The notes beneath the pieces were generated by a model that was not told the origin of the DNA, did no database searches, and was given only the letters and a program-made list of their open reading frames with translations. A stretch of DNA of 64,000 bases from Bythopirellula goksoeyrii (GTDB lineage Bacteria > Planctomycetota > Planctomycetia > Pirellulales > Lacipirellulaceae), in NCBI RefSeq assembly GCF_008065115.1, contig NZ_CP042913.1, positions 1,834,338-1,898,337 of the forward strand, given 5' to 3'. The position numbers and the translations under genes are program-made. The first letter of the stretch is position 1, and each line of letters begins with the position of its first letter. Below, in pieces: positions 41,035 through 49,592 of the stretch.

Positions 41035-42504
41035 TTACTTCACCAACTCCACGTCTGCCAACTTGAAGGTCTTGTTGTAAAAAGCCTCTTCGGGTCCGTA
41101 GAAACGGAACATCGCATAGGGTGCCTTGCCGGATGTCGGAATCCAGTTCGTCTCGAGTCCCTCGGGGCCGAAGTAGAGCGTCACGCTGCCGTCGGCGTTT
41201 TTTGTCATCTTGTCGGTGTCGCGCGAAGAAAGGCCCGGCAGCATCTGCGGCGAATAGATGAATGCCCAGGTGTCGCGGTCATAGATGGTCAGTGACCAGA
41301 ATTGTTTGACCGGCACATCCTTGGGCACCGTGAGCGAATATGTCTTACCGGCCTCGAACAGGTTTCCGTCCGCGTCACGCATCGTGGCGATGTACATTGT
41401 CGCCGGTTTCTCCGCGACTTTTGCCGGGAAATAGATGGCCGAGAACCAGGGACGGACCGCGCGCATGTCGTAGTCGACCAAATCTGCGGTCTCCCATTTG
41501 AAACTCTTGTTCGCGTCGCAGAAAAAGATATCTCGCCACTTGCGGTCCGCCCACCACGCTTCTCCTGGCAGTTCCTCTGCAAAGGTTTCCTGCATGTAAT
41601 GATAAGCGTCTACAACCGCCTTTCGATAAATCGCCTTGGTTTTTTCATCGGGGGCGTAGGGCTTGTCCTTCTCGATGCCGATGGTCTTGAGCATCCCCAT
41701 CATGACCATGTCGCGCCGTGTCGATGGCTCGACGCTGATCACATTATGAATATCCTCGAACCAGCGTTCGTCATACCGTGCCAGCGTCGGCCACTGCATG
41801 TTCAGTGGATCGATGAACTTTGTCGGCGCCGGGTTCGGAAGCTCGGACAGGTAGTACATTTTCATTTGTTTGCCCAACGCCTCAGCGTCCACCGGGCTCC
41901 CGGCGGGCGTTGGAATCGACCGGATGGCCATATCAGGGCGGAAACTGACGCTCTTCACTTCGATGTAACCCGCTGGCACCTTGTCCGTGTAGCCCGGAGG
42001 CGTGAGCAAGAGCTTGGCGCCCTTGCCTTTGTCGACGCCAATCGGCCCGATATCGACGAAGGTTTGGTACCAGTGATCGGCGATCTGCCCGAACATAATC
42101 GCCTTGTCATTGGCCGCGGGTATCTCAAGCACGACCGGCCCTTTCCGCAGGTCAGTCATCGCAAGCACATAGGGCGAAACATTGTTCGGGGTGAGGGCCT
42201 CGAACTTCGGCGTCGCCCCGGCGGACCACGCCAGGACGACGTTGTCGCCGCCACCGATTGCCAGTGTTCCGCGGCGCAGGCCCAGCTTGTTCACCATGGG
42301 CACGGACCACAGAACCGCCTCAAAGGCCCGCTGGTACAGCACCTGATCCTGGAAGGTTGCGAAGTTGGTGAATGAAGGCTTGGCACCCACCGGCGGTTTG
42401 CCTCCAATCGGATCGGTGGGCCGCTCTTGCGCACAACATGTCGTTGCGACAACAATCGCCATCATGAGTGTCAATGCGTCTATGCAGGCGTGTCTTGATT
42501 TCAT
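41035..42504 (-). CDS. Secreted DUF1254/DUF1214 protein (copy A)
   Basis: A 489-residue exported protein of the DUF1254-DUF1214 family (COG5361 type), function unknown. Signal peptide ends TTCCAQ. Family landmarks: VGAKPSFTNF and the N-terminal beta-sandwich, VDKGKGAKLLLTPPGY, and the DUF1214 motif FWSLTIYDRDTWAFI followed by NADGSVTLYFGPEGLETNWIPT. AAGAG precedes ATG 42504. It is the last gene of the TetR-led cluster, with a 218-base gap before it that could hold its own promoter. It is more diverged from copies B and C than those are from each other. Confidence 0.85.
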   Translation of the reverse strand: MKSRHACIDALTLMMAIVVATTCCAQERPTDPIGGKPPVGAKPSFTNFATFQDQVLYQRAFEAVLWSVPMVNKLGLRRGTLAIGGGDNVVLAWSAGATPKFEALTPNNVSPYVLAMTDLRKGPVVLEIPAANDKAIMFGQIADHWYQTFVDIGPIGVDKGKGAKLLLTPPGYTDKVPAGYIEVKSVSFRPDMAIRSIPTPAGSPVDAEALGKQMKMYYLSELPNPAPTKFIDPLNMQWPTLARYDERWFEDIHNVISVEPSTRRDMVMMGMLKTIGIEKDKPYAPDEKTKAIYRKAVVDAYHYMQETFAEELPGEAWWADRKWRDIFFCDANKSFKWETADLVDYDMRAVRPWFSAIYFPAKVAEKPATMYIATMRDADGNLFEAGKTYSLTVPKDVPVKQFWSLTIYDRDTWAFIYSPQMLPGLSSRDTDKMTKNADGSVTLYFGPEGLETNWIPTSGKAPYAMFRFYGPEEAFYNKTFKLADVELVK

Positions 42505-42722
42505 GTTGTCTACTCTTGCTAATTGCAGAATCTTTGTCTGCTGGTTGTGAAACTTGAATACTTGGTTAGATGCGGATTGAGGAAGCCAGTAATCTTCTTT
42601 AGTGACACTTCAGTTTTGCGCGAGAGTAGACCTGAAGTCAGCGCCGTTCCAGTCGCCGACCGAAATCGCAATATACGGGGCTGAGCTGCAGAGGAATTTT
42701 GTCTCATGGTGACTTAGGGTCG

Positions 42723-45191
42723 TCAAAACAGGAAGGAAGATACCAGCACGATCACCAACAGAATTGGATAGACAATCCGCGACCACCAGTCGATCTTTTC
42801 AGCTCGTTGCCCATTTTCGCGTCGAATCAAGACCGTATTGAAGACGGTTTGGATCAAGCCTGCAAATACCGTCAGCGTCGAGAGCAAAATGAACCGGTCT
42901 ATGCGTGTGACGTAAGAGACTCGCGGCAAGAGAACCGTGATTGCAAACAAGTAGGCGACAAGGGTCAGAAACGCTGAAGTTGAAATGCCGATATTCGTTC
43001 CGATTTGTTCGGGGTCAATCCACCGAGGCAACCAAGACATCATGACAATCAGGCACAAGGGAATGATAACCTTGAGGATGTAGTAGGTCGCCTGACGATG
43101 GACGCGGATGTTCATTTGATACCCTGCCACTCCGACCTGGCCTTCGGTAGGGTAATAGGGAGTCGGTAGGGCTTCCCAAGACTCGACATCAAAGTCCGGT
43201 AATGAGAACTTTTTCGCTATGCTGGATGATCTACCAATCTCATTGACAAGCGGAACTATTTTGACGTGTTCTTCCGAAAGGCCTGCCGCGACAAGCTGGA
43301 TCGACAACGTCTGTTGATCGAACGGAAAATCGCGAAGCATCAGCGGTTGTGAAAACCGTCCCCAAACCTTTTGTCGAGAAATCACGGTGCCGTCCGGTCG
43401 AATTTCAACGGAATCAGGGAATGATCGCCATTGCATTTGCTGCCCAATGATCGTTAGTCGCGGAGACCAGACCTCGGCGATGTTACGGTTCATTGGGCCC
43501 GGTCCTTTGTGACGCAACAAGGGGTTCTTCCATCGCGCTTCGTAATACACGCTGGCGGCAAAACTTTGATCTGCCGAATTAACTTCGTCGACATCGATGA
43601 CATAGATCGCCACCTGAACCTCTGTTGGTTCGCCCCACACTGTCGGGCGTTCCATCTCGGGTTTTAGCTCATCGATCAGCACCGACGGCTTGACTTCTTC
43701 GGCCGCCTCGGCGCCGGCAGGCTTTTGAACAGTCGCCGTCGGCGCCGAATCTGCTTCCCACACCAAGGGTGGCGTCCACGTGCCGTCGTAGGCTTCCGGT
43801 TTCGGCCAATACAAACGCATGACCATGTAAAATGGCCCGTTCGGCGCCGGCAGCCAGTTGGCCGCCTGTTCTTCTTCCGGCGACTGACATTGAATGGGAA
43901 TTGTCAGACCGCCGTTCACATCGCGGTCAAGTGAATCAAGCATTGATGAACTGATTCGATATCGGCTGATCGGATTAAGGACGAGTGTGTTGTTCTGGCT
44001 GTCGTAGACCGTGATGGACCAGAACGCGTTGACCGGCGGCAGTTCTTCTGGCCCGATTTTCAATACATAGTTTGCAGAGCTTCCGTCGAGCGGTTTTCCC
44101 CCGGCATCCGAGAGATACAAAGGATAGAGTGCTTCCTCTTTGGAATTGGTGTAACGCCCGAGCTTCGCAGCCACTGCGCGCTTAATGAGATATTCGCTGC
44201 CAAGATATTCGCGTGTGCCGATCACCTCGGCGACCTTTAACTTGGAAGCCGCGGCCGTGATTGCAGCCTCGCCTTCGGCCATGCCCTTGGTGAGCGATTC
44301 CCGCATATCGGGGCTGATCGCGTCAACATCGTACGGCTCACCCGCAGCCACACCAATGCGTGCCAATCGCGCGATGAGTTTCTGTTCCGATTTAGAAGGC
44401 GGACAGAATTGCAAAATGAAATTGAGTGCTGAAAAGAATGCGAGATCCGGGCCAGCATCAGGCGACGGGAGTGGAAATTCGGTTTCGGTCGCGGGAGCCG
44501 GCATTGGCTCACCGGCAAATTCACTCAGAGTCTTTGCAGTGTACTGCTTCTGAATGTCCTTGACGTTCTGAAGATCATCGGGCCCGAGCAACTGCGTGCG
44601 ATAGACGGCTAACGCAAATCCGGTCTCGCATCGGATCACTTTGCTAATGCCCGTTGGAGTCTCGCCTGTCCAGTTTGGCCCGGCGATCAGGTATTGTCCT
44701 GCGCCGTTGCCGGTCACCCTGGAACCGATGTAATCAAAATTGAACTTGAACAGATCCGTCAACTGGATCGAATAGTAGCGAGCCTTCTCATTGGCCGGGA
44801 CACCCAGCACGACAGGCTCACTTCTCAAGTCCATCCACAAGAACGAATAGGGCGTGTCGGCGTTGGGGGTGACGACCTCTTTGTCAGCCGGAGTGAAAAC
44901 GTTGGCCTCGTGTTTGAAGGCATTAAGTGGTGCCTTGAATTCATCGCTATCTCCGTCGATCGCAAAGGCATACATCGTCCGGTAGCTTTCGACGATTGGG
45001 TAACCATAGATGTATGCTTCACGAGCGATCGTTTGGGCTTCGACGGCAGTCAAATCCTGAGCCGAGCATTTGTTTACCCAACACGCGAGGACGACGATGG
45101 CCAAACAAGATAATTGAGCAACTCTCAAACGCCTCGCTTTACGTCGCCATCGATGAACACTACCAGTGCTAGTTCGAGAACAGGCGTTCAT
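42723..45191 (-). CDS. DUF1254/DUF1214 - pentameric ligand-gated ion channel fusion
   Basis: An 822-residue membrane protein joining two families in one unbroken frame. ATG 45191 is chosen for GGTGGAG five bases upstream; the frame itself extends to 45302 and would overlap the preceding gene. Parts: signal peptide ([13 protein letters not shown], cleavage near CSAQ); DUF1254 ([12 protein letters not shown] near 59, [12 protein letters not shown]); DUF1214 ([12 protein letters not shown] near 389); an Ala/Glu/Pro linker (about 490-510); then a Cys-loop-like receptor: extracellular domain from about 515, Pro-loop [14 protein letters not shown] near 620 lacking the Cys pair as in GLIC and ELIC, M1 ([18 protein letters not shown], about 699-718), M2 ([21 protein letters not shown]), the loop [11 protein letters not shown]3, and M4 ending at the C-terminus. 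DUF1254 and the receptor domain would both be periplasmic. Ligand and ion selectivity are unknown. Confidence 0.9.
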
Positions 45192-45268
45192 GAATACTCC
45201 ACCTTTAGTACCTGTGACTTCCACCCAAAGCGTTCTTTCTGAACCAGCGATGGAAGCCCCAGTCGCCA

Positions 45269-46807
45269 TTACTCCACCAACTCGATCTCGCCCGGTCGCC
45301 AAGTCTTATCGATCCAGGGTTGCAGAGGGCCGTACATCCGCAAGCCAATCCACCAACTCTTGCCGGGAATCGTCTGCAGCCAGTTGCCTTCCTGTCCCTT
45401 GGGCGGTTTCGGCGCAAAGTAAATATCCCACGACCCGTCGGCGTTTTGCTTCATGCCTTCGGTCTGGCTGCCGAGCGTGGGGAACTGCTGGTTGGTTTGC
45501 AGTTGCGAACGGGTTTGAGTGTCGTACATCGTTACCGCCCAGAAGTCTCTGACCGGAACATTTGGCGGTAGATGCAGCTTGTAGATCTTCGCGCCATCAA
45601 GCACCTTGCCTTCTGAATCGAGCATCGCGAGTCCATAGTCCGAGCCTTTTCCAGCGACTGTCACGGCCATCGCCGGGGAAACGCAGATGTAGCCGAAGTG
45701 AAACAAGGCGCGAGCATCGAGATTGTACGCACCGTTTTTTTCGAACCCTGTATCCTTGTTGGCGTAAGCCATCACCCACGCGCTTTCCTTACCGTAGATA
45801 AAGTTGCCCGGCTCTCGCGGGAAGTAGCTGATCGCACGCGCTGCGGCGTTGCCGATGGCGGCGGCATCGGTCAGGATCGCCTTCATGCGGGTGTCTGGAT
45901 CGAAGGGTTTGCCCTTCTCGATGCCGATAGCGGCCATCATCCCCTTGGCTTCCGCGCCGAGGTAATCATCCGGCTCATCCTGGATCAAGTCGTGCAGCTT
46001 CTCGAAAAAGGTGTAATCATTGGGCAGAATTGTGTTCATCGACTTGCCTGACACTTTGATGAATTCCATCTTCGGAGGTGCATCTTTGCTGCCGAGCGGA
46101 TAGACCTTCAGATTGTCACGAATGTTGGCTGAGGCGGCCGGGATTGCTTTCTCCAGTGGCAGGCTCTTGTCCAGATAGCCGCGCATGAATACCCACACAC
46201 CGTTGGTTTTCGAGGGCACAACGAAATATCCGTCAGGCACATCGCCCTTGTGACCCGGAGGCAGAACCAGAAACTTGCCGCCCTTGCCCTTGTCTGGTCC
46301 GGCCACACCGAGATCGGTCATGTACCGGAAGGCCATGTCGTCCAAGATGCCCAGCATGCCTAGGGGCAAATCGATGACCGTCGGTCCATCCTTCGCCAGG
46401 TCAAGAAAACCGACGGCATACATGGTCGAGGTATTGCCTGTCAGCAGTAGGGACTTCGAATCCATCAGATTGTCCCAGATACAGATCTTGTTGCAGGTGT
46501 CGGCGGCAACCGATGCCTGACCTTCGCGGAGAGTGTGGATCGACAGCATCGGAATCGAGTTGATGAAGACGTTCACAGCCCGCGAGCGGTCGAGATAGTC
46601 ATAGACCTTCACGACCGTTTTCGGCTGCGGCACACCGTCGAAGTATTCGAGCGTGCCGATCGACGTTTCGACCTTGTCCTGAGCCGTGATGGAATGCGGA
46701 ATGTCTGTGGTCATTTTTAATTGTGGCGACTGAGCAAAGCCCGATGTTCCTACCAGCGCTACAGACATCGCGATAACAGCTCGCACGGCGATTAGCCTTT
46801 TTGTCAT
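45269..46807 (-). CDS. Secreted DUF1254/DUF1214 protein (copy B)
   Basis: A 512-residue exported DUF1254-DUF1214 family protein. Signal peptide [20 protein letters not shown] sits eight bases before ATG 46807. Landmarks: [66 protein letters not shown] and the end [10 protein letters not shown]. It resembles copy C along its whole length (same block order, QTRSxLQTxQQFP motif), so the two are probably tandem duplicates. Starts 87 bases after copy C and ends 77 bases before the channel fusion. Confidence 0.87.
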
Positions 46808-46894
46808 TACCGATGCTCCTACGTAAGTGGTTGTGCGTTTTCGTTACAGTTTCATACCTTTTGTAAGTAGCCGGGGCGGAAACGCCCGGCAACG

Positions 46895-48415
46895 TTAATC
46901 GAGCGACTCCGGATCACCAATTCTCCAGGTTTTGTCATACCATGGTTTGGTCGGGCCGTAGATACGCCACAGCATGTTCCAACCTTTGCCGGGAACAGTC
47001 TGGAGCCAGTTAGATTCCTTGCCGGACGGCGCGTTGGGGCCGAAGTAGATGTCGTAGGAACCATCCGCGTTCTTCACGAGCCCCTTCTTGTTGCTGTCGA
47101 GACCTGGGAACTGCTGATCGGTCTGCAGTTCGGAACGGGTCTGGTTGTCATAGAGCGTAAAAGACCAGAAGGATTCCATCGGCACATTGGGCGCCACGTG
47201 CACCTTGTAGGTTTTGTCACCAAGGAGCGCGTCACCCTTGGAATCCATATAGGCCACCGCGTAGACTGAGCCTTTACCATAAGGTGCCTGGGTCATCGCC
47301 GGGGTGATGCCGGTCGCGTAGAAGTGGAAGTAGGCGCGAGCGTCGAGATAGCGGGCATTGTTCTTGTCGAGAAACAGGTAACTGCCACCCGGAAACGGCG
47401 TCGTCCACACTCCTTCACCGGGATAGTAAAAGAAATCTTTGCCACGTGGGCGTGACGCGAGTGCACGCACCGTGACCGCAGCCACATCGGCAGCCTCGGC
47501 GAGGATCTTCTTCATCCGAGCATCAGGCGTGAAGGGCTGACCCTTTCGGATGCCGATGGCTGCTAGTTGACCGAGAATTTCCGGATCCTGCCCATCGCCC
47601 GGTTCGCGCTGGACGACGCTGTTGACCTCATCGAAAAACTTGGCGTCCATCGCATGAATGGTGTTGAACGGCTTGCCCGACACGTCGATGAACGTCATCT
47701 TCGGCGGATTGTCCTTCTGCGCCAGTGGGTAGACACGCAGCTTTCCCTTCGTCGCGTTGATGGCAGGAGCCGTGCTTCCATCGACTTGCGAACCGCGCCA
47801 GATCACCCAGTTGCCATAGGTCTGCGGTTTCTGTACGAAATAACCGTCGGGAACATCACCTTCGTAGCCGGGAGGGAGGAAGAGGAACTTTCCGCCCTGG
47901 TTTTTGTCCGGTCCGACTTGGCCGAAATCACAGACGTAGTGGAACCAGGCGTCATCGACGAGTCCGATCACATTGGGAGGTGTCTCGACGACCATCGGCC
48001 CTTCGGTTAGGTCGAGCCATAGCAGTTGGTAGATCGAGGTTGTGTTCGGCGTCAGGAACAGTGTCTTCGAGTCCATGAGCTCTTCGAACAACAGCGCCGT
48101 GTAATTGGCCGGTCCCCATTTGAGTATGGCTTCACGCATGCCGTTCATCGAGGCGATCTGAATGGTGTTCAGGTAGGCCTGTGTGGCTCGCTGGAAGTCA
48201 AGATTGTCATAGACCTTCTGGGCCGTGGCCGCATCAGGAACTCCATCGACCGAGGTGAGTGTGCCAAGGCGGGTTTCCAGCTTGTCCGGCGTTGCGATCC
48301 CAGGGGGAATCGGTGTTGTCATTTTCATTTTGGGTGCCTGTGCAATTCCGGTCGAAGTGATGGTTAACCCGATGAATAGTCCCAGTGCTGAGGCAATTGC
48401 CGATTGTCGTTTCAT
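46895..48415 (-). CDS. Secreted DUF1254/DUF1214 protein (copy C)
   Basis: A 506-residue exported DUF1254-DUF1214 family protein, signal peptide LFIGLTITSTGIAQ. Landmarks: [76 protein letters not shown] precedes ATG 48415. The gene starts 20 bases after the TetR-family stop and so is almost certainly in one transcript with it. The biochemical function of the family is not established; related genes often sit near transport or regulatory genes. Confidence 0.87.
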   Translation of the reverse strand: MKRQSAIASALGLFIGLTITSTGIAQAPKMKMTTPIPPGIATPDKLETRLGTLTSVDGVPDAATAQKVYDNLDFQRATQAYLNTIQIASMNGMREAILKWGPANYTALLFEELMDSKTLFLTPNTTSIYQLLWLDLTEGPMVVETPPNVIGLVDDAWFHYVCDFGQVGPDKNQGGKFLFLPPGYEGDVPDGYFVQKPQTYGNWVIWRGSQVDGSTAPAINATKGKLRVYPLAQKDNPPKMTFIDVSGKPFNTIHAMDAKFFDEVNSVVQREPGDGQDPEILGQLAAIGIRKGQPFTPDARMKKILAEAADVAAVTVRALASRPRGKDFFYYPGEGVWTTPFPGGSYLFLDKNNARYLDARAYFHFYATGITPAMTQAPYGKGSVYAVAYMDSKGDALLGDKTYKVHVAPNVPMESFWSFTLYDNQTRSELQTDQQFPGLDSNKKGLVKNADGSYDIYFGPNAPSGKESNWLQTVPGKGWNMLWRIYGPTKPWYDKTWRIGDPESLD

Positions 48416-48435
48416 GTTCGCGCCTTTCGATGTGC

Positions 48436-49143
48436 TTAGGAGGTTTTTGATCGTGATGTCTTCGCGCGTTTAGCTCGACGTTCTGAAACATCGCCACTCA
48501 CCGCCTGACCGCTGTAGAGCGTGGAGACCCAAACTTGCAGGATCGCTTTCCGAACTGAATCCCGGTTTCCTCGCGGGCGTCGTCCAAAGTGATGGATCAG
48601 CAAATAGGCATCCATGCGGTTGAGGGCAATGGCCACCGAGCGTGCGTCAAATGGTAGGATCAGCCCCGTTTTCTGATGTTGTTCGATTCGCTGCGTGACC
48701 GCGTCGTCGAAGTCTTTTAAGAAATTAGTCCACGCCTTTTCCAACCGCTCGTCCATGGGGGCAGCGTCAGAAACAGCCCTCAAGATCGGGCCCTGTTGAT
48801 AGCAGACACGCACTAGGCCTTCCATCGATTCTTCGAGAAGCGGGAGCGGATCACCCTCGCCCTGCAACCAAGGTGTGGCGACACCAAAAATGTCCTTTTC
48901 TATGGCGTGGAGAAGCGTTTCCATCAATCCGTGCAAGTCCTCGAAGTACTGATAGAACGCCGGGCGGCTGGTGCCGGCAAGCGACATCAACTCGCCGACG
49001 GTCAAATCGCGGAAGGGATGCGTCCAAAGAAATTTCAACGCAGCATCGAGGATCGCCTGCCGAGTTCGTTCGGACTTCCGCAGCGTACGACGATTCCTGG
49101 GATCGTTGCGACGACGAATCTGAGACTGTTTGGTATCTGACAT
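48436..49143 (-). CDS. TetR/AcrR-family transcriptional regulator
   Basis: A 235-residue one-component regulator. The N-terminal helix-turn-helix is TRQAILDAALKFLWTHPFRDLTVGELMSLAGTSRPAFYQYFEDLHGLMETLL, ending in the YxYFxxxxxL motif typical of the family; the C-terminal ligand domain is helical and diverged, and the tail is basic (RRAKRAKTSRS). ATG 49143 is preferred; ATG 49167 in the same frame is possible. It heads the minus-strand DUF1254/channel cluster, 20 bases from copy C, and probably controls it. A palindrome overlaps its start. Confidence 0.9.
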   Translation of the reverse strand: MSDTKQSQIRRRNDPRNRRTLRKSERTRQAILDAALKFLWTHPFRDLTVGELMSLAGTSRPAFYQYFEDLHGLMETLLHAIEKDIFGVATPWLQGEGDPLPLLEESMEGLVRVCYQQGPILRAVSDAAPMDERLEKAWTNFLKDFDDAVTQRIEQHQKTGLILPFDARSVAIALNRMDAYLLIHHFGRRPRGNRDSVRKAILQVWVSTLYSGQAVSGDVSERRAKRAKTSRSKTS

Positions 49144-49171
49144 AATGTCATATGTTAATGCCCTCATGTCA
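49138..49171. promoter_or_regulatory. Candidate TetR-type operator
   Basis: TGACAT-A-ATGTCA (49138-49150) is a perfect 13-bp dyad across the presumed start codon of the TetR-family gene, and another ATGTCA half-site lies at 49166-49171. TetR-family proteins typically bind such dyads near their own promoter. No copy was found ahead of the other genes of the cluster. Confidence 0.45.
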
Positions 49172-49592
49172 GCAATGCAACCTGCGCTCGAATCGTTCGT
49201 GCGGCCGGGATTCAGCGGCAAGTCGCTGAAGGAGAGGCCACCGCATAGCGTTGGATCAAGAAAACTCTACGCTTGGCATTTCTTGATTGCGTAAAACCGC
49301 GCGGAGGTGGCACACCGCCTGCAATTCGCTACTTATTAAACGCCCCGCGGTTGCATCATCCGAGGCGACTAGGCAATACTTCTAGCGCGCGGCGGTGCTC
49401 ACGACCTCTGGAGTTAAATGCATCGAGCTGAATTGCAAGGCTTTTTCGACCGCAACCAGAAAAGGTTGTTCGGCCAACGAGTGTCGACTTATACCCACTC
49501 CCCGCACTGGGAGGGTTGGAAAAGGTGGTAGCCGGGAAAAGTTAGGAGACGTACCGATATAGGGAAAGGTCCTTGGCATGATTGCCGCCGCC
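49172..49592. other. Intergenic gap at the upstream edge of the island
   Basis: About 420 bases with no supported gene. There is a 7-bp inverted repeat AACCGCG/CGCGGTT around a small GGTG-GCA-CACC hairpin (near 49294-49350) and otherwise nothing recognisable. The promoter of the TetR-led cluster should lie at its lower-coordinate end. Confidence 0.35.

Follow-up and report, generated by a model that had tools for sequence, protein, structure and literature searches.

A DUF1254/DUF1214 module joined in one frame to a pentameric ligand-gated ion channel subunit in Bythopirellula goksoeyrii and its relatives

Bacterial pentameric ligand-gated channels that carry further domains ahead of the canonical core have been described in two settings. 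According to the available text of an early survey (Tasneem et al. 2004, PMC549065), some bacterial ART-LGICs are fused to PBP-I or MCP-N/Cache domains, which precede the ligand-binding domain and the four-helix core on the periplasmic side and for which a sensing or modulatory role was proposed. DeCLIC, from Desulfofustis, bears a large periplasmic N-terminal domain with two lobes per subunit that influences gating kinetics (accessible portions of PMC9897478 and PMC12664993), and its authors stated that, as of 2022, it was the only prokaryotic channel with an N-terminal domain whose structure had been solved (PMC9897478, same portions). The present analysis concerns a gene of Bythopirellula goksoeyrii located in a stretch of 64,000 nucleotides (contig NZ_CP042913.1, positions 1,834,338 to 1,898,337, hereafter the window). 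The minus-strand frame at 42723-45191 of the window encodes a protein, P0001, in which a complete DUF1254/DUF1214 module is followed by a full pentameric ligand-gated channel subunit. The reading that we favour, with a probability of about 0.62, is that P0001 is the subunit of a homopentameric channel whose periplasmic accessory module, of the type seen in the proteins VPA0106 and VPA0735, senses a signal or modulates the channel.

An earlier note on this DNA had proposed one unbroken frame running from DUF1254 through DUF1214 to a channel subunit, and this is what the frame contains: 822 codons with four Pfam domains in that order (Table 1), all exceeding the curated cut-offs (47.6 bits against 26 for PF02931 and 36.5 against 28.1 for PF02932). 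The frameshift envisaged at 43650-43720 is not present, and profile searches recover the channel domains PF02931 and PF02932 in the last 310 residues. The start codon is ATG, preceded by a ribosome-binding sequence that looks good by eye (AGGTGGAG, ending 5 nt ahead of the ATG), and the frame remains open upstream as far as a TTG at 45302. Hydropathy peaks lie around residues 30-33, 709-714, 742-753, 775-776 and 809-813. Residues 1-45, poorly conserved compared with the relatives, may be read as a signal peptide. Among the best 60 of 286 sequence matches in the Protein Data Bank (PDB), residues 54-475 match VPA0106 (3u07, 1e-44) and residues 516-822 match GLIC (about 4e-24), the best match of the channel half being the GLIC/glycine-receptor chimera 4x5t (residues 516-814, 2e-32; 4.7e-33 with the channel part alone). 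From the earlier interpretation, the architecture and the membership in the Pro-loop receptor family are thus borne out by Pfam, PDB sequence matches and alignments; export, pentamer formation, periplasmic placement and a role in gating are what we infer for P0001.

The fused form recurs. Including the window's, six fused genes are known from as many assemblies, four of full length, one truncated and one with a frame break. A second genus of the same family (genome G010, locus L004) has a fused protein of 802 amino acids in one frame, 66% identical to P0001 over residues 43-821; sampling of the order yielded an 812-codon fused frame in genome G718 and, in genome G489, the copy with the frame break, which lies near its N-terminus; an intact fused protein of 806 amino acids is encoded by a metagenome-assembled genome (MAG) of Blastopirellula sp. 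(L079); and in a MAG of Planctomicrobium sp. (L078) the fused copy is interrupted by the contig end. The contig of G956, which came from the sampling of the class, is the reverse complement of L078, letter for letter, and the two were counted as one record. All four domains are recognised by Pfam in L079 and L004, and in the truncated L078 only the membrane domain is missing from the Pfam matches, whereas the fusions of G718 and G489 were recognised by sequence comparison only. The possibility that the gene is an artefact, that is, a frameshift or an assembly join of two neighbouring genes, is negligible: nothing was found in its favour, and the independent fused orthologs in other genera and families, with their conserved junction, exclude an assembly error in the window genome.

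The channel half shows the features of the family: the ligand-binding domain PF02931, the membrane domain PF02932 with four helices, a Pro-loop and the proline of the first membrane helix (M1). The motifs that had been announced were all located, namely a Pro-loop without the Cys pair (FPFD, residues 622-625), the conserved M1 proline (Pro711), a leucine at the 9' position of M2 (Leu742) provided that Pro756 is taken as 23', and an M4 that ends at the C-terminus (residue 822). The PF02932 match covers M1 to M3 (residues 708-795), M4 being drawn from hydropathy and from the GLIC alignment, which reaches the C-terminus. P0001 misses the cut-offs of the NCBIfam families LGIC_1 and LIC (113.5 against 500 and 111.4 against 280.2 bits); judged by these scores, it is a relative and not a member of these subfamilies. 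With the same numbering, the hydrophobic M2 positions Leu742 (9'), Ala746 (13') and Phe749 (16') would presumably form the gate.

The closest known channels are GLIC, the proton-gated channel of Gloeobacter, and the membrane domains of glycine and GABA-A receptors; the comparison reveals both shared and divergent features. Like GLIC, which matches residues 516-822, P0001 has an FPFD Pro-loop without Cys; unlike P0001, GLIC has no N-terminal module of the DUF1254/DUF1214 type. Furthermore, the glutamate that we take to be GLIC E35, its presumed proton sensor (the numbering and roles of GLIC residues are those we assume throughout), is aligned to a glutamine in P0001, and simple GLIC-like proton gating therefore appears less likely, provided that this role of E35 holds. 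The glutamate that we take as -2' in GLIC faces Gln729 of P0001 across a two-residue gap, whereas counting from Pro756 as 23' places Gly731 at -2'. In the spacing of M1 and M2 and in the M2-M3 loop, P0001 and the glycine receptor part of 4x5t (loop LPKVSYVKAID) give a gap-free alignment, but the P-A-R that precedes M2 in the glycine receptor is replaced by G-T-N in P0001 (Gly731-Thr732-Asn733). Signatures of charge selectivity before M2, E-[RK] for cations and A-[RK] for anions, are carried by only some bacterial members according to the available text of PMC549065. Neither of them occurs at residues 731-733 of P0001, and its charge selectivity is therefore not predictable.

The N-terminal half is a DUF1254/DUF1214 domain by several lines of evidence. 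It carries both Pfam profiles in order. Across 37 unfused DUF1254 relatives, 25 positions show at least 90% conservation, and P0001 retains 24 of them. In the fused rows, 22 of the 25 are retained wherever a letter is present, whereas 156 and 356 deviate in one fused row each and 426 varies in three of six. The AlphaFold model of the module alone is of fair to medium quality (predicted local distance difference test, pLDDT, 71); it matches 3u07 with a Foldseek E-value of 1e-33 and the VPA0106/VPA0735 fold with TM-scores of 0.57-0.64. Among the best 50 of 415 Foldseek matches, those at E < 0.001 are VPA0106, VPA0735 and 6ans, an uncharacterised protein from Burkholderia. The N-terminal half of P0001 thus matches VPA0106 (3u07) and VPA0735 (2p3y, 3vb9) over their full length, in sequence and in model fold; these chains, however, consist of the DUF part only (443 and 483-491 residues), to which P0001 adds a channel.

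The earlier note had pointed out that prokaryotic channels with extra N-terminal domains are known, and PBP-I, MCP-N/Cache and DeCLIC provide such precedents. P0001 shares with the PBP-I and MCP-N/Cache channels an extra N-terminal domain, periplasmic in those channels, ahead of the ligand-binding domain and the four-helix core (PMC549065), but its module is a different one by profile, and DUF1254 and DUF1214 are not mentioned in the available text of that survey. The likeness to DeCLIC lies in a large N-terminal domain on a prokaryotic pentameric channel, a domain that in P0001 would be periplasmic as well. Kinship of the module with the DeCLIC lobes was considered and is not supported by the profile or by the DUF-only matches listed, the model being weak on fold. 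Indeed, DeCLIC is absent from the five PDB sequences that the module's profile matches at E 10 and from the best 50 of 415 structural matches of the medium-quality DUF-only model. The full-length model does match DeCLIC (E-values between about 1e-12 and 3e-10, with many rows spanning 788-810 columns and others 504-520), but these matches cannot be assigned to the module and may stem from the channel half. The DUF-only model also has matches to 3afg and 1nqd (E 0.54 and 0.77), a weak lead; both are named by the DeCLIC authors as look-alikes of its lobes (accessible portions of PMC12664993).

If the favoured reading is correct, the N-terminal segment would export the chain, the module and the ligand-binding domain would lie in the periplasm and the four-helix domain would be inserted in the inner membrane, as the predicted topology implies. 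Five subunits would form the pore, with a module atop each of them and hence five per channel, as expected from topology and from what is known of the family. By analogy with the other bacterial channels that have N-terminal domains, the module most likely forms a layer for sensing or modulation on top of the canonical ligand-binding domain. An ion or small molecule bound by the module, or by the interface between module and ligand-binding domain, would shift the gate around Leu9', Ala13' and Phe16'.

The conserved positions of the module can also be read in another way. The module could be an enzyme or ligand-processing domain acting in cis, which makes, frees or destroys the channel ligand beside its binding site with no allosteric sensing. 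N110, Y115, R198, W391, Y396, N445, R459 and Y461, shared by 37 of 37 unfused relatives and by all fused rows that have a letter at the position, could mark a site, and unfused DUF1254 proteins are common, the window itself having three more in tandem; the conserved polar and aromatic residues could, however, be structural, and no catalysis has been tested in the accessible parts of the DUF1254/VPA0735 literature. On balance, an enzymatic module seems unlikely. In the accessible parts of the literature naming DUF1254 or DUF1214, no tested function was found, only table rows and conflicting labels, 'putative nucleases' on the one hand and 'phosphatidylserine decarboxylase' on the other. The suggestion of the earlier note that DUF1254 may bind, modify or deliver the ligand is thus a conjecture. 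The more specific proposal that local turnover of a periplasmic compound by the module, above the ligand site, gates the ion current must be considered quite doubtful; if it were true, the current would report directly on DUF1254 chemistry and would give a large orphan family its first functional handle. To our knowledge, no catalysis is known for the DUF1254/DUF1214 family.

It is also improbable that the module serves only to anchor, assemble or cluster the channel, for instance through an envelope polysaccharide to which it binds, and has no control over gating. Channels without the module persist, and the DUF-only model has matches to a lectin and to carbohydrate-binding modules (E 0.08-0.82), but these are below significance and come from a model of medium quality (pLDDT 71). 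Moreover, the linker is conserved and is not a free tether: its 37 residues are 51-92% identical between pairs of fused proteins.

When P0001 is compared with G718, the ratio of nonsynonymous to synonymous substitution rates (dN/dS) amounts to 0.23 in the DUF part, 0.10 in both the linker and the ligand-binding domain, and 0.16 in the membrane domain. Purifying selection thus acts on both halves in this pair, the only one measurable for both. For the two remaining pairs, synonymous sites of the DUF part are saturated, and the values obtainable for linker and channel are 0.06-0.10, near saturation. The dN/dS of this one pair and the conserved positions kept indicate that the module is maintained as a DUF1254/DUF1214 domain.

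A further possibility is that the fusion is an evolutionary by-product, in which two genes have run together and the chain is processed after export so that the halves act apart. The channel orthologs with an N-terminal leader of their own, most of them sharing the motif KPE..RP, and the patchy distribution of the fused form would fit this, but all six fused genes cross the junction in a single frame uninterrupted by any stop, the 37-residue linker is conserved and the module is monophyletic. It is therefore very unlikely. The orthologs in question are channel halves 66-72% identical to that of P0001, with no DUF1254 in frame. Their leaders mostly contain the lower linker motif KPE..RP (seven rows; two have PPE instead), the lower part of the linker being thus found also at the N-terminus of channels devoid of the module. 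Since the channel half exists without it, channels of this type carry the module as an optional accessory.

Several observations weigh against the favoured reading. The module-free orthologs occur in nine genomes (G392, G280, G223, G423, G738 with two copies, G696, G954, G923 and G861), and no DUF1254 gene was found at E limits of 1e-4 and 1e-3 within several kilobases on either side of ten such channels (L063-L066, L122-L127). In three of the nine genomes (G696, G392 and G223), no DUF1254 match to the module was found at E 0.001. In G489, the DUF1254 part begins in a different frame from the rest, within a few hundred bases of a contig end. The full-length AlphaFold model of P0001 is poor (mean pLDDT 56, nine sequences) and leaves the placement of the module unsupported. 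Finally, the fused form is patchy, in at least 2 of 43 genomes of the family and at least 1 of 15 genomes of the genus of G718.

In the larger samples, fused genes amount to at least 4 of 396 genomes for the order, 3 of 397 for the class and 1 of 392 for the phylum, the last being the window's own genome. The family, order, class, phylum and genus samples overlap. For order, class and phylum, fusion was judged by frame length, then by scripts on the fetched loci, and 20 frames of long or medium size were scanned with Pfam; the counts leave out places with no fetched locus, a few of which have long frames. A scan of contigs from named genomes with two short peptide patterns gave five loci, of which two, L079 and L078, are fused, its silence elsewhere being weak evidence.

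Two arrangements that would have tied module-free channels to a separate DUF1254 protein were examined and rejected. An operon link between a module-free channel and a DUF1254 gene is contradicted at the ten loci mentioned above. A split pair retained elsewhere in the genome is not supported either, as no partner seen in the nine genomes reaches the closeness of the fused modules among themselves (53-86%); the best DUF1254 matches there are 49-50% identical in G954, 48% in G423 and 30% in G738, with only partial matches in G861, G280 and G923.

The DUF tree was built from 43 rows, 62 matched frames having been reduced by 11 for span and by 8 that were identical copies or copies of the window locus. 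In it, the six fused modules group as a single clade (support 100/100), and the rows closest to it are DUF1254 proteins from plasmid records of Cupriavidus, Rhizobium gallicum and Microvirga (98/95); a DUF1254 protein from Rhizobium phaseoli is placed elsewhere. In the channel trees, module-free rows are interspersed among the fused rows, and a single fused group is rejected by the approximately unbiased (AU) test both with an outgroup (p 0.021, 6 against 12 rows) and without it (p 0.016, 5 against 7 rows). A smaller channel tree of 17 rows is not resolved inside the clade. Taken together, these trees suggest one fusion followed by losses of the module, a history that we do not claim, most forks being weak, two module-free branches long and the outgroup distant.

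P0001 is closest to the protein of G718, which belongs to a different family (86% identity in both halves), and not to that of G010 from its own family (62% and 75%). Just downstream of the fused gene of G718, locus L120 contains what is left of a DUF1254 C-terminus, broken by a stop; over 120 bases it is 78% identical to the 3' end of the gene that follows the fused gene in the window (41035-42504). The fused gene and its downstream neighbour thus seem common to two families, and the closeness of G718 together with this remnant points either to horizontal spread of the segment or to loss elsewhere. Third-codon-position identity between P0001 and G718 is uneven, mostly 0.70-0.95 in the DUF half but 0.45-0.75 in the channel half, although the protein identity of the two halves is similar. 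This difference suggests that the history is mosaic or the constraint uneven.

Searches of mobile elements gave partial matches only. No relative of the channel part was found in viral contigs; 258 plasmid records match, none of them over more than 80% of the query at one place; and six Listeria phage records have partial DUF1254 matches, none exceeding 80%. In two of the latter (OR848136 and OR846720), DUF1254-like sequence is 31% identical over 51% of P0001, the stretches in the four others being shorter; these stretches are possibly bacterial DNA in those records.

No paper naming both DUF1254 and a ligand-gated ion channel was found, nor any naming two or more of DUF1254, DUF1214, VPA0106 and planctomycetes, in a search that left most subscription literature outside; two papers that name ligand-gated ion channels together with planctomycetes are unrelated, judging by their titles. 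The available text of a 2016 channel inventory indicates that the terminal parts of the sequences were discarded (PMC4795631). DUF1254 is therefore apparently a new module on an already known kind of channel, and the receptor design apparently undescribed: a relative of animal neurotransmitter receptors with a large extra outside domain on each subunit. Through the fusion, an electrical assay becomes available for DUF1254/DUF1214, a family of many members for which structures have been solved. Furthermore, the natural module-free channels, 66-72% identical in pore and ligand-binding parts, permit a clean comparison of the effect of the module.

Table 1. Position of the fused gene, its parts and the neighbouring genes in the window
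Feature	Positions	Strand	Basis
Fused gene, 822 codons and stop: N-terminal segment, DUF1254, DUF1214, linker, pentameric ligand-gated channel subunit	42723..45191	-	Single frame, Pfam, PDB matches
N-terminal hydrophobic segment, residues 1-45, ending ..CSAQ	45057..45191	-	Hydropathy peak around residues 30-33
DUF1254 (PF06863), residues 90-219	44535..44924	-	Pfam, E 5.2e-43
DUF1214 (PF06742), residues 353-464	43800..44135	-	Pfam, E 1.2e-31
Linker, residues 479-515 (KPAGAE..EEVKPS.L.DE.KPE.ERPT), conserved among fused proteins	43647..43757	-	Alignment
Channel ligand-binding domain (PF02931), residues 513-671	43179..43655	-	Pfam, E 1.8e-12
Four-helix membrane domain, residues 701-822	42726..43091	-	Pfam (708-795, E 8.4e-9), hydropathy, alignment with 4x5t and GLIC
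Stand-alone DUF1254/DUF1214 protein, 489 amino acids, downstream of the fused gene	41035..42504	-	Pfam
Stand-alone DUF1254/DUF1214 protein, 512 amino acids, upstream of the fused gene	45269..46807	-	Pfam
Stand-alone DUF1254/DUF1214 protein, 506 amino acids	46895..48415	-	Pfam
TetR-type regulator, C-terminal domain EthR-like, first gene of the same-strand run	48436..49221	-	Pfam

In the window, the fused gene belongs to a run on the minus strand (41035-49221) that comprises, in this order, the TetR/EthR-like regulator, two DUF1254/DUF1214 genes, the fused gene and a third DUF1254/DUF1214 gene. The run is flanked by genes for a pterin-binding enzyme and a member of the aldehyde dehydrogenase family, presumably folP- and proA-like, and by an LptE-like gene. 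It is not conserved in G010 or in the Blastopirellula MAG, as no other DUF1254 gene was found in the stretches fetched from them.

The window genome has a second gene for a pentameric channel, unfused and 26% identical (L072, G000:C1:760158-761129), which is also present in G011 of the same genus. Among 20 channel frames of the phylum that were scanned, one (L050:1465-3564, minus strand) has an NMT1_3 periplasmic-binding domain ahead of the channel membrane domain, and the 19 others have no Pfam domain at E 0.01 in their N-terminal extension. About 490 residues with no Pfam match precede the channel in L108:1465-3852 (minus strand) and about 1370 in L074:780-5798 (plus strand), a part of which may be over-extended open frame. 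Tandem arrangements of the module exist as well: L005:1495-4407 (minus strand) is a 971-codon frame with two tandem DUF1254-DUF1214 units, and G954 has a 957-codon frame with two DUF1254 matches that resembles it.

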